This document shows positions 2,856 to 25,277 of a stretch of DNA of 64,000 nt, piece by piece (positions within the stretch are counted from its first letter, which is position 1; every line of letters begins with the position of its first letter). The DNA comes from Geminicoccaceae bacterium. Lineage in GTDB: Bacteria; Pseudomonadota; Alphaproteobacteria; Geminicoccales; Geminicoccaceae. Location of the stretch: NCBI GenBank assembly GCA_028279345.1, contig JANQNY010000006.1, forward strand, positions 124,001 through 188,000, given 5' to 3'. A program made the translations under genes and the position numbers. The notes under the pieces were generated by a model. That model made no database searches. It was not told the DNA's origin and worked only from the letters and a program-made list of their open reading frames with translations.

Positions 2856-3437
2856 GTGAACGCGAAGGGCCACAGCCATAAGCTGCGGGCGCTGGTGACC
2901 GTGGTCGCGGCCATCGTTCTCAGCGGCTGTGCGGCGAGCGGGCCACTGGTCGAGCCGGTGGTGGGCACATCGCCGCGCGACGCGCGGATCGCGCTCGAAC
3001 TCGCCGCGCGCAGCGGCCCGGTGTCGGGACGCGTCGAAGGCCTTCCCGACGGGCCGGACACGGCGACGACGGAACAGGCGATCCTGGCCGTGATGGGCGA
3101 TGCGGTTGAGGCACTCTCAGTGGGCTTCACCACCACCGCTCCGGCCGATGGCGCCCCGATCCTGGTCGTGACCTTGGGTGCGCTCCCCGGCGCCAACCCC
3201 TGCCTCACGCCGCCCGCGTTTGGCGAGCCGACCCTGGTCGCTGCGGCGTTCTGTGCGAACGATCAGCCGATCGGCGCCGTCTTCGGTACGGCCGAAGGCG
3301 AGGACGATGCCGCCCGCACCCGCCTCTACCGGCGCCTTGCCCGCACGCTTTTTCCGAACCTCTACGCCGAGCGCTACGGTATCGGCTACGGCCTCGAGTC
3401 CCTCGGTTTGCCGACCGGCGGCGCCGAAACCTTCTGA
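2856..3437 (+). CDS. Putative lipoprotein, function unknown
   Basis: 193 residues from a GTG start. The N-terminus has a basic segment, a hydrophobic helix and a lipobox VLSGC with the lipidated cysteine at residue 25, so it should be an anchored lipoprotein. The rest alternates small hydrophobic and acidic residues with two further cysteines (ANPCLTPP and AFCANDQ), perhaps a disulfide. No catalytic motif or known family was recognised. It follows lolA in the same direction, though nothing links their functions beyond proximity. Confidence 0.65.
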   Translation: MNAKGHSHKLRALVTVVAAIVLSGCAASGPLVEPVVGTSPRDARIALELAARSGPVSGRVEGLPDGPDTATTEQAILAVMGDAVEALSVGFTTTAPADGAPILVVTLGALPGANPCLTPPAFGEPTLVAAAFCANDQPIGAVFGTAEGEDDAARTRLYRRLARTLFPNLYAERYGIGYGLESLGLPTGGAETF

Positions 3438-4318: not shown

Positions 4319-4425
4319 GCGCGACGGGCCGCAGAATTGACAAGCCGACGAGCAGAAGGCTATCGCGCAGTGCAACATAGCGCCAAGACGAACAGGCCCG
4401 CCGCACGCGGGTGGGAGCGGTACGC

Positions 4426-5187
4426 ATGAAACTCCTCGTCCCGATCAAGCGGGTGGTCGACTACAACGTGCGGGTGCGCGTGAAGGCGGACGGCAGCGGT
4501 GTCGACACCAGCAACGTCAAGATGTCGATGAACCCCTTCGACGAGATCGCCGTCGAGGAGGCGATCCGCCTCAAGGAGAAGGGTACGGCGAGCGAGATCG
4601 TCGCCGTGAGCATTGGCGAGGCCAAGGCGCAGGAGACACTCCGGACCGCGATGGCGATGGGTGCCGATCGCTCGATCCACGTGGCGACGAGCGCTGCTAC
4701 GGACACGGAGCTGCAACCTCTCGAAGTCGCCAAGCTGCTGAAGGCCGTCGTCGAGCGGGAGAACCCGGACCTCGTTCTCATGGGCAAACAGGCGATCGAC
4801 GACGACAGCAACCAGACCGCGCAGATGCTCGCAGCGCTGCTCGGCTGGCCCCAGGGCACCTTCGCCTCGAAGATCGAGCCAAGCGAGGGCGGTTTGAACG
4901 TGACCCGCGAGGTGGACGCCGGACTCGAGACGGTGGCGCTCAAGCTGCCGGCCATCGTCAGCGTGGACCTGCGCCTCAATGAGCCGCGCTATGCATCGCT
5001 GCCGAACATCATGAAGGCGAAGAAGAAGCCGATCGACCAGCTCACGCCCGAGGAGCTGGGCGTCGATACGGCGCCGCGGCTGACCTACGTCAAGGTCGAG
5101 GAACCGCCGAAGCGCGAGGCAGGCATCCGCGTCGACGACGTGCCGACGCTGGTGGAGAAGCTGAAGTCCGAAGCGGGGGTGATGTGA
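4426..5187 (+). CDS. etfB: Electron transfer flavoprotein, beta subunit
   Basis: 253 residues. EtfB binds AMP and, with EtfA, carries electrons from acyl-CoA dehydrogenases to ETF-ubiquinone oxidoreductase. The start [15 protein letters not shown], the [12 protein letters not shown] motif near residue 39, [16 protein letters not shown] near residue 115 and the recognition-loop-like [20 protein letters not shown] near residue 180 are all diagnostic. ATG 4426 was chosen over a codon 15 bases earlier because the family begins at MKLL. Its TGA overlaps the ATG of etfA by one base (TGATG), so the two are translationally coupled. Confidence 0.96.
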
Positions 5188-21887: not shown

Positions 21888-23777
21888 ATGATCACGTTCG
21901 CCGGGGTCACGGTCCGCATCGGCGGGCGGTCGCTCCTCGAGCAGGTCGACCTCGCCCTCCCGCTCGACCAGCGTTATGGCCTGGTCGGCCGGAACGGGAC
22001 TGGCAAGTCGACACTCCTGCGCCTGCTGGAGGGCAGCCTCGAGCCCGATGAGGGCACCTTGGAGCGGCCGGAACGGTTGATCATCGGGGCCGTGGCGCAG
22101 GAAGCGCCGGGCGGGCAGCAGACGCCCCTGGCAGCCGTGCTGGCGGCCGACAAGGAACGCGCACGCTTGGTCTTGGAGCGCGACACCACGAGCGATCCGA
22201 TGCGGCTCGCCGAGATCGAGACCAGGCTGCACGAGATCGGCGCCGACGCGGCACCGGCGCGCGCGGCGCGCATCTTGAAGGGCCTCGGCTTCGATGACGC
22301 CATGCAGGCGGCCCCGCTCTCAGGCTTCTCGGGCGGTTGGCGCATGCGTGTGGCGCTCGCGGCGGTCCTGTTTGTCGAGCCCGATCTGCTCCTCTTGGAC
22401 GAGCCCACCAATCACCTCGATCTCGAAGCCGCGATCTGGCTCACCGATCACCTCAAGCGCTACCCGCGCACCCTCATCCTGGTGAGCCACGACCGCGAGC
22501 TCCTGAATGCGGTGCCGCAGGCGATCGTCCACCTGAGCCAGCAGCGCCTCAGGCTCTATCGCGGCAACTACGACGCCTTCGCCAGGACACGCGGCGAGCA
22601 GGCCATCCTGGAGGCCAAGGAGGCGGCCAAGGTCGCCGAGCGCAAGGCGCACCTGCAGAGCTTCGTCGACCGCTTCCGCTACAAGGCCTCGAAGGCTCGC
22701 CAAGCGCAGAGCCGGCTCAAGATGATCGAGCGGCTGGGCGATGCCGCACCGCAACCGCCCGAGCCCGACGTGGTTTTCACCCTACCGCGACCGACCCCGC
22801 CGCCACCGCCGATGATCACCCTCGATGAGGCGTCGGTCGGCTATGACGGCAAGCCGGTGCTGCGCGATCTCGACCTGCGCCTGAACCCGGAGGATCGGAT
22901 CGCGCTGCTGGGCGCCAACGGCAATGGCAAGTCCACGCTCGCCAAGCTGCTCGCCGACCGGCTCGCGCCGCTCTCCGGCAAAATCGTCCGCGCCCGCGAT
23001 CTGCGGGTCGGCTTCTTCGCCCAGCACCAGATCGAGGACCTCGAGCCCGAGGACAGCGCCCTCGACCATCTGAGGCGACTGAGGCCGGACGCCCGCGAGC
23101 AGGCGCTGCGGGCGGAGCTGGCGCGCTTCGGTCTCGGCGCGGAGAAGAGCGGCACGCCCGCGGCACGGCTCTCGGGCGGCGAGAAGGCACGGCTCGCGCT
23201 TTGCCTCCTCTGCGTTGCCCAGCCGCAGCTCTTGATCCTCGACGAGCCTACGAACCACCTCGACATCGACAGCCGCGAAGCGCTTGTCGAGGCGTTGAAC
23301 GACTATCCGGGTGCCGTCGTCATCGTCAGCCACGACATCCAGCTCCTGGAGCTGACCGCCGATGAGCTGTGGCTGGTCAATGACGGGCGCGTCAGGCATT
23401 TCGAGGGCGACCTGGGCGACTATCGCCGATGGCTCAAGGATGGCACGCCGCCGCCCGCCAAGCAGACTCCCCAGCCGGTGCGACCGGCAGCTCCCTCGCC
23501 GGTCCCCTCCGCGGCACCAGGCAGGCGGCTCGATCCGGCGCTCCGCCGCAGCAAGCTGGCACCGCTGCGCCGTGCGCTCGGCGAGGTCGAACGGCGCATC
23601 GCGCAGCTCGAGCGTGAGAAGCAGGCCCTAGCCCAACGGATGGCCGATCCGGTGACCTTTGCCGACGACGGGGTAGCACAGGCAGCGGTCCGCCAGCTCG
23701 GTCATGTCGAGCACGAAATGGCCACACTCGAGGCACGCTGGCTGGAGCTCGGCGAGGCGATCGATCAGCTGAGCTGA
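21888..23777 (+). CDS. ABC-F family ATPase (YheS/Uup type)
   Basis: 629 residues without membrane segments, two ABC domains in tandem. Walker A motifs are GRNGTGKST (about residue 36) and GANGNGKST (about 344); signature motifs are SGFSGGWRMR and RLSGGEKARL; both Walker B copies read LDEPTNHLD. The inter-domain linker is charged and helical, and a C-terminal coiled coil (about 555-625) resembles Uup/YheS. ABC-F proteins bind the ribosomal E site and relieve stalls or act on peptide-bond chemistry; they are not transporters. Which subfamily it is in is not settled. No ribosome-protection resistance context is present. Confidence 0.92.
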   Translation: MITFAGVTVRIGGRSLLEQVDLALPLDQRYGLVGRNGTGKSTLLRLLEGSLEPDEGTLERPERLIIGAVAQEAPGGQQTPLAAVLAADKERARLVLERDTTSDPMRLAEIETRLHEIGADAAPARAARILKGLGFDDAMQAAPLSGFSGGWRMRVALAAVLFVEPDLLLLDEPTNHLDLEAAIWLTDHLKRYPRTLILVSHDRELLNAVPQAIVHLSQQRLRLYRGNYDAFARTRGEQAILEAKEAAKVAERKAHLQSFVDRFRYKASKARQAQSRLKMIERLGDAAPQPPEPDVVFTLPRPTPPPPPMITLDEASVGYDGKPVLRDLDLRLNPEDRIALLGANGNGKSTLAKLLADRLAPLSGKIVRARDLRVGFFAQHQIEDLEPEDSALDHLRRLRPDAREQALRAELARFGLGAEKSGTPAARLSGGEKARLALCLLCVAQPQLLILDEPTNHLDIDSREALVEALNDYPGAVVIVSHDIQLLELTADELWLVNDGRVRHFEGDLGDYRRWLKDGTPPPAKQTPQPVRPAAPSPVPSAAPGRRLDPALRRSKLAPLRRALGEVERRIAQLEREKQALAQRMADPVTFADDGVAQAAVRQLGHVEHEMATLEARWLELGEAIDQLS

Positions 23778-23803
23778 GACCTAAGGCCTCCTTAAGGTTG
23801 ACT

Positions 23804-23832
23804 TTGCCTGCTGGCCGTGCCTGTGCTACCTT
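23804..23832 (+). promoter_or_regulatory. Putative sigma-70-like promoter of the phasin-like gene
   Basis: TTGCCT at 23804-23809 and TACCTT at 23827-23832 are separated by 17 bases. An alternative upstream box TTGACT is at 23798-23803. The GTG start at 23874 would leave a leader of about 35 bases. Position and spacing are right; the hexamers are only moderate matches. Confidence 0.4.
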
Positions 23833-23833
23833 G

Positions 23834-23848
23834 TGCTGCGTTGCAGCA
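23834..23848. promoter_or_regulatory. Palindrome TGCTGC-GTT-GCAGCA, candidate PhaR operator
   Basis: A perfect 6-bp inverted repeat with a 3-base centre sits directly downstream of the predicted -10 box and ahead of the phasin-like gene. Its core is CTGC-N3-GCAG, which is the binding pattern I recall for PhaR, the PHB-sensing repressor of phasin genes in alphaproteobacteria. The position over the transcription start suits a repressor. The regulator gene is not in the window, so the link is inference. Confidence 0.5.
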
Positions 23849-23873
23849 TAAGGCCTTGCGTGGAGACGGCCCC

Positions 23874-24461
23874 GTGAAGAACCCCTTCCTCGATGCCATG
23901 GCAGCGCCAATGGCGATGACCTCGGCCACCAAGTTCATGCGGCTCCTGCAGGAGCAGCAGATGGACACGGTCGAAACCAGCGTGAGGGCCCTCTCCTGTC
24001 GTGATCCGATGCAGCTCGTGACGCTGCACCAGGCGTTCCTGCAGCGGATGGTGGGGCGCTGGACGGCAGCGGCCGCCGCGGCGAAGGACAGCGCGAAGGG
24101 CGCAGCCAAGGATACGAAGGCAGCCGTACAGAAGGCAGAGGCCGTCCTCAAGGAGGCGAAGACCGCTGCTACGCCTCCACCGCCGGCAGCTCCCAAGTTG
24201 GCGCAGGCAACGCCGAAGGTCGTGCCCGCCCCAGTCAAGCCGCCGGCGCCGAAGCTCGCCGCCGCCAACGACGACCTGACGGTGATCAAGGGCATCGGCC
24301 CCAAGTTCGCAAAGACACTGAACGAGCATGGCATCACCAGCTACCGCCAGCTTGCGAGCCTCAAGCCGAAGGAGGTGGAGGCTCTCGAAGCCAAGCTGGG
24401 CTTCAGCGGCCGCTTCGAGCGCGAAGGCTGGATCGAGCAGGCGCGCGAACTGGCGCACTGA
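23874..24461 (+). CDS. Phasin-like protein with C-terminal helix-hairpin-helix domain
   Basis: 195 residues from GTG 23874, chosen because GGAG lies eight bases upstream and the longer frame has no such site. Residues 1-65 are helical, Met/Gln-rich and short-phasin-like (NPFLDAMAAPMAM, FMRLLQEQQMDTVETS). An Ala/Lys/Pro-rich linker follows (about 65-130, resembling histone-H1-like or PHB-granule DNA-binding tails). The C-terminus (about 135-195) has DDLTVIKGIGPKFAKTLNEHGITSYRQLASL, a helix-hairpin-helix/SAF-type DNA-binding module also seen in ribosomal- and nuclease-linked proteins. It may link PHB granules to DNA. Assignment of the N-terminus to phasins is moderate. Confidence 0.7.
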   Translation: MKNPFLDAMAAPMAMTSATKFMRLLQEQQMDTVETSVRALSCRDPMQLVTLHQAFLQRMVGRWTAAAAAAKDSAKGAAKDTKAAVQKAEAVLKEAKTAATPPPPAAPKLAQATPKVVPAPVKPPAPKLAAANDDLTVIKGIGPKFAKTLNEHGITSYRQLASLKPKEVEALEAKLGFSGRFEREGWIEQARELAH

Positions 24462-24476
24462 TAGGGCGTCTGGCGC

Positions 24477-25277
24477 TCAGTAGCTGAACGAGCGGCACTC
24501 CTCATTGCCGACGCAGGCACGCCGCGTGTAGAGCGCTGCCTGCAGCCCACCTTGGACGCGCGTGCGCATCACGAGCGGCACCATCGCCTCGTCGTCGCTG
24601 ACCAGGACGACGAGGCGCCGTTCCTCGCGGTCGCCGTCATCGAAGCCCGCGAGCGGCCGGAGCAAGACCTCGAGCTCAAAGATGGGCGTGGGGCCCGTGT
24701 CGAAGTCGGCGTCGCGCCGCTCCACGAGGCGCACCGCTAGATCGTAGCGGCGCCGACCGTCGAACACGGCGAACCGCGTCGTGTCGGGGCCACCGTCGCG
24801 CGCGCTAAAGAGCCAGCCGCGGATGGCGGTGAACGCCGCCAGCGGATCGACGGTGCCGTCCCGCAGCGCCGCCGGCACCTCCGACGGCTCCTCCTTGCCG
24901 CGCTTGAAGGTGGCGAGGTCGATGACCCGCCCGTCGCCGTCATAGCGGATCATGACGCGGCGATTTGAGCGCTTACTTTCGGTCTCGAAGTCGAAGCTCA
25001 GCGTTCTGGGTCGCGTGCCGTCCAGGCGCGAGAGTGAGTGGCTCGCGCTGCTGAAGCCGGTGAGCTCGCGCGCGAGACCGACCGTCTCGACCAACAGATC
25101 CTGAGTCACCTCCTCGGCCTGGACCTGGGTGCTCAGCTCGGCGCGACCGACGGTCATCCCGAGAAAGCTCATATCCATCTCGAGCACGAGGTCCTCGGGC
25201 GCTGCCGCCGACGTGCTGGGCCCATCGACGAGCAAAGCCGCGGCGAGCGCCACGCCGCATAAACGAGCAGCCATCAT
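24477..25277 (-). CDS. DUF3108 exported protein
   Basis: 266 residues, Sec signal peptide ending near AAA-PEDL (residue 26). The mature part matches DUF3108: LVLEMDMSFLGMTVGRAELS near the start, a central PLAAFTAIRGWLF and ending in FELEVLLRPLAGF...VPLVMRTRV. The fold is a beta-rich periplasmic or lipid-binding-like domain of unknown role. ATG 25274 (second Met) is an equally good start. It is divergent from uvrA and convergent with the phasin-like gene 15 bases away. Confidence 0.82.
   Translation of the reverse strand: MMAARLCGVALAAALLVDGPSTSAAAPEDLVLEMDMSFLGMTVGRAELSTQVQAEEVTQDLLVETVGLARELTGFSSASHSLSRLDGTRPRTLSFDFETESKRSNRRVMIRYDGDGRVIDLATFKRGKEEPSEVPAALRDGTVDPLAAFTAIRGWLFSARDGGPDTTRFAVFDGRRRYDLAVRLVERRDADFDTGPTPIFELEVLLRPLAGFDDGDREERRLVVLVSDDEAMVPLVMRTRVQGGLQAALYTRRACVGNEECRSFSY

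Follow-up and report, generated by a model that had tools for sequence, protein, structure and literature searches.

PHB granules of Caulobacter crescentus are reported to be positioned on the nucleoid by PhaH, a small phasin with an N-terminus for granules and a C-terminal helix-hairpin-helix (HhH) domain for non-specific DNA binding, and without PhaH the granules are described as disorganised (2025 review PMC13052382, citing Salinas et al. 2023, Mol Microbiol, doi 10.1111/mmi.15124). PhaF of Pseudomonas putida and PhaM of Cupriavidus necator, as summarised in the same source, also combine a granule-binding N-terminus with a DNA-binding C-terminus and position granules on the nucleoid, which is the role we propose for a protein of a Geminicoccaceae bacterium; their DNA-binding part is histone-like (PMC13052382), whereas the Geminicoccaceae protein has an HhH instead. 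The regulons of AniA/PhaR in S. meliloti and of PhaR in B. diazoefficiens include phasin genes behind a near-promoter TGC palindrome, as at the locus described below, although no HhH phasin is among the targets described in the relevant sections of the two reports (PMC12542648, PMC6201568). Since the idea of an HhH-bearing protein that links granules to DNA has already been published, and for Caulobacter, the gene analysed here is to be seen as a new relative and not as a new system.

The phaH-like gene and its orthologs

The gene lies on the forward strand at 23874..24461 of the 64 kb stretch of DNA that was analysed (the window), begins with GTG and encodes a product of 195 amino acids, composed in order of a weakly phasin-like helical hairpin, a disordered Ala/Pro/Lys linker and an HhH tail. 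Its upstream neighbour, named by eye as an ABC-F-type ATPase gene, ends at 23777, and a convergent gene follows at 24477-25277. Full-length orthologs were found in two of the 30 other family genomes, G394, which is of the same genus, and G408, with 51-56% identity. The GTG start and the VKNPF N-terminus are common to both, as are the KNPF residues on their own and a CRDPM turn, and the likely ribosome-binding site, GGAG at 23862..23865 on the forward strand, was read from the sequence within a TGGAG conserved across the three orthologs (the window's own counted). The search covered 385 class genomes, 31 family/order genomes, 80 contig loci and plasmids, and none of these sets held a further full-length ortholog. 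L130, an alphaproteobacterial MAG, and L131, a Geminicoccaceae MAG, were rejected as extra orthologs, since they duplicate the loci of G394 and G408, respectively, and N-terminal matches in G386 (E 0.005) and G404 (E 0.009) were set aside, neither showing a phasin-HhH reading frame.

A candidate PhaR operator and the wider regulon

An earlier note on this DNA had pointed to a palindrome, TGCTGC-GTT-GCAGCA, overlapping a predicted transcription start, and had connected it with PhaR through the pattern CTGC-N3-GCAG. The palindrome is found at 23834-23848, 33 nt upstream of the gene, and forms the core of a candidate PhaR operator of 21 bp (23831..23851, no strand assigned) defined with a phasin-promoter matrix. 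A sigma-70 consensus scan of 23600-24600 found no promoter, so the transcription start itself was not confirmed. The short pattern proved uninformative because it is common: the window holds one copy, the core palindrome, against a mean of 2.76 in shuffles, and the genome 133 against 208 for a reversed control, and we rejected it as proof of a PhaR site when taken alone. This lack of excess is in keeping with a chance palindrome ahead of an unrelated HhH protein, a reading that is by now very unlikely and barely credible in view of what the longer box shows. The full 6+3+6 palindrome accounts for 7 of the 41 genome places listed for the looser pattern, where base composition would give 0.52, and it is the 21-bp box that discriminates. 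A matrix built from six boxes at the other phasin genes of the genome, with the window site left out, gave the window site a score of 27.0, the next best in 64 kb being 13.9; the training boxes scored 18.5-29.6 when each was left out in turn, and 4.4 Mb of simulated order-3 Markov sequence contained no hit of at least 20. The box also recurs before both orthologs despite divergence of the flanking DNA, with a score of 21.0 at 48 nt before the start in G394 and 26.6 at 26 nt in G408. The spread of 26-48 nt, together with an upstream alignment in which the G394 box is not in exact register with those of the other two genes, means that the position of the box is the same only approximately.

The published PhaR sequences agree with this site. 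The PhaR sequence of R. sphaeroides is given as CTGCNNNGCAG, S. meliloti PhaR is described with a core YGCRNYGCR flanked by AT-rich arms (PMC12542648), and footprinting and alignment yielded TGCRNYGCASMA for B. diazoefficiens (PMC6201568); the window site fits all three alike. On both strands of the genome TGCRNYGCASMA occurs 93 times, against 36 for the reversed control, and it lies just upstream of four of the five places with a Phasin_2 match, the window gene among these four. Boxes stand directly before the phasin genes of contigs C75, C41 (two) and C31, and two boxes precede a second C31 ORF that was judged a phasin and added by eye (Phasin_2 E 0.027); the training set includes both of the latter boxes. 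The fifth place, at C69 (E 0.096, with an in-frame TGA), was not counted as a phasin, and its contig carries no TGCRNYGCASMA site. From the published consensus sequences we infer that PhaR binds the box.

As the PhaR reading demands the corresponding genes, their presence was checked: the genome contains a single phaR (C57:37523-37705, TIGR01848 142.2 bits against a cut-off of 109.45) and four PhaC_N, phaC-like genes, and phaR was found in 30 of the 31 family genomes. No strict box stands before phaR or any phaC gene; weak boxes were seen at phaR (13.4) and at one phaC (15.7), the other three phaC genes having no notable box. A weak box at phaR has precedent, since S. meliloti PhaR is reported to have required the highest concentration assayed to bind its own promoter region (PMC12542648). 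The absence of strict boxes from phaR and phaC, and the occurrence of some strong boxes at genes without an obvious PHB link, would also suit another regulator of TGC palindromes acting on a protein that is not bound to granules. We consider this quite unlikely, given that the identical type of box is found at the genome's other phasin genes, which are classic PhaR targets, and that the window box fits the RNY centre of the published PhaR consensus (PMC12542648, PMC6201568).

The box was also compared among genes that share the HhH tail, for which 140 of 166 loci were parsed and scored and 26 were left out, several loci being the same gene repeated and the G408 box being scored separately. Orthologs aside, the best near-start score in these 140 loci was 16.3; the box tracks the phasin-type fusion and not the tail. 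Together with the presence of phaR and phaC, the boxes at other phasin genes and at both orthologs, and the fit to the published consensus, this supports the operator proposed in the earlier note, and control of the window gene by PhaR is well supported in silico.

Boxes of the same type were observed elsewhere. The second-best in the window, at 4360-4380 (13.9), lies about 50-60 nt before an electron-transfer-flavoprotein-beta-like gene near 4427 (by eye). Strong boxes were noted near genes named by eye as an acyl-CoA ligase-like gene (L123:1993-2004, 24.1), a fabI-type reductase gene (L015:1954-1968, 22.4), a UbiD-type decarboxylase gene (L014:2014-2028, 25.5) and a groES-like gene (L117:2067-2078, 25.1), and these four may possibly belong to a wider PhaR regulon. 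At L113, boxes at 1277-1291 and 3137-3148 (15.6 and 15.4) stand before genes that resemble, by eye, those of a CitE-like lyase and of a MaoC-like hydratase, which perhaps links PhaR to acetyl-CoA assimilation. Three PhaR-type boxes, the best scoring 24.9, are packed within 70 bp at L114 ~2017-2086 (G000:C85:31416-31484), with no clear target gene adjoining.

Protein architecture and the shared HhH tail

AlphaFold models of the three orthologs (mean pLDDT 66.8) consist of two helices, 18-40 and 45-98/99, and, beyond a low-confidence stretch at about aa 99-131, a compact HhH tail. The helices make up a predicted hairpin that includes the phasin-like segment (aa 18-87, 23925..24134, forward strand), and the Phasin_2 model (PF09361) matches this segment with E 1.1e-3 and 19.6 bits. 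The phasin-like N-terminus suggested by the earlier note holds insofar as all three orthologs match, at 19.6, 22.9 and 23.2 bits, and falls short insofar as none reaches the Pfam gathering score of 24.9. Profile alignment (hhalign) of the ortholog N-termini with the genome's four other phasins gave a probability of only 0.7%, and with the N-terminal profile as query the PDB returned nothing at E <= 1. Modelled alone, the N-terminal part is again a helical hairpin whose structural matches are generic helical ones (for the best, Z 7.8 with 3.1 A over 87 residues); no phasin is among the matches listed, which excludes nothing. We regard the protein as likely to be a phasin, and the weak phasin match together with regulon membership suggests that it binds granules. 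The low-complexity Ala/Pro/Lys linker (aa 99-131, 24168..24266, forward strand) is predicted to be disordered from its low pLDDT, and its net charge is not conserved, at +7, -10 and +2 across the three orthologs.

The tail (aa 133-194, 24270..24455, forward strand) matches HHH_5 over aa 134-170 with E 1e-5 and 26.3 bits, just under the Pfam cut-off of 27; two of the three orthologs (26.3, 33.2 and 38.7 bits) are above it, and the C-terminal HhH described earlier is borne out, with this small shortfall in the window protein. Its hairpin reads GIGPK, the form usual for DNA-binding HhH motifs. In structure comparison the tail model resembles HhH domains in Rad51 (Z 7.6, with 2.1 A over 60 residues), in DNA polymerase iota (Z 7.1, with 2.4 A over 57 residues) and in NusA (Z 6.6, with 2.6 A over 61 residues), a likeness of fold that demonstrates no function. 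Across the orthologs the HhH carries a net charge between 0 and -2, and with a linker of varying charge, DNA binding by plain electrostatics is not a conserved feature.

The tail was matched in 33 of the 385 class genomes (the window's own counted), and the ORFs that bear it, as named by eye, include the ribosomal proteins L15, L20, L21, L27 and S2, as well as NuoE and proteins with a membrane anchor. These tails are homologous to that of the window protein, their hosts being non-phasins without a strong box, and the sequence matches define a promiscuous alphaproteobacterial module. In many family genomes we also observed a membrane-anchored coiled-coil protein bearing the same tail, often with LPAGSSAR (L032, L063, L065, L066, L068, L070, L074, L075 and others). 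The NCBIfam model of PhaH has to be read in this light. NF045508 (PhasinPhaH) matches the window protein with E 3.4e-19 but reaches 70 bits where its cut-off is 250, and the alignment is confined to aa 58-194, mainly linker and tail, with aa 1-57 unaligned; the two orthologs score 67 and 77 bits, and 250 is exceeded in none of the 385 class genomes and only by the Caulobacter control. The NuoE and L21 models score about equal to that of PhaH because the tail is common to all.

Such a tail could instead dock a partner protein or a further protein of the granule, and not DNA, in a granule protein still regulated by PhaR. That it also occurs on NuoE, on ribosomal proteins and on membrane-anchored ones points this way, as do its near-zero net charge and its sequence relatives in the PDB, which are a complex I subunit (9wqv chain a, E 5e-18) and 'protein O' of a photosynthetic reaction centre (8yy9 chain O, E 4.5e-15), DNA polymerases matching at E 0.05 or worse. 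We consider this alternative unlikely, in view of the GIGPK hairpin, of nearest folds that are largely those of DNA-acting proteins, even if fold proves no function, and of the C-terminus of Caulobacter PhaH, which is reported to bind DNA (PMC13052382).

A proposed granule tether under PhaR

The reading we prefer, and consider probable, is that the gene encodes a PhaH-type phasin that is controlled by PhaR, forms a coat on PHB granules and anchors these to the chromosome. In the absence of PHB, PhaR would sit on the box just before the start codon and block transcription, and as PHB accumulates PhaR would be pulled to the granules, freeing the gene together with the other phasin genes. The N-terminal helical hairpin would then attach to granules and the flexible linker would carry the HhH tail, which would grip the nucleoid non-specifically, so that granules would be spread along the chromosome. 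By analogy with Caulobacter PhaH we infer DNA binding and granule positioning, and tethering of granules to DNA is plausible on the same grounds. The granule-to-DNA linker of the earlier note thus gains a close precedent in PhaH, which it had not named, and is supported only in part, because the phasin models stay sub-threshold in all three orthologs and the promiscuous tail occurs on many proteins without an evident DNA role.

More tentatively, Caulobacter PhaH and the Geminicoccaceae gene may be separate fusions, in which case nucleoid-tethering phasins would have more than one origin, each from the union of a phasin-type hairpin with the promiscuous alphaproteobacterial HhH tail, and would here be PhaR-controlled; we hold this to be possible and somewhat doubtful. 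With the tether under PhaR alongside the other phasins, the number of tethers would, on an independent origin, follow PHB content. The literature searched contained no statement that PhaR controls phaH, the primary PhaH paper lying outside its scope.

Taken together, these data would extend the PhaH-type granule tether beyond Caulobacter and tie it, in silico, to the PHB-sensing repressor PhaR, and they offer an example of the way in which an HhH tail common to many proteins may be put to a new use. A PhaR-linked tether also provides a testable idea, namely that cells may match granule number to segregation capacity.
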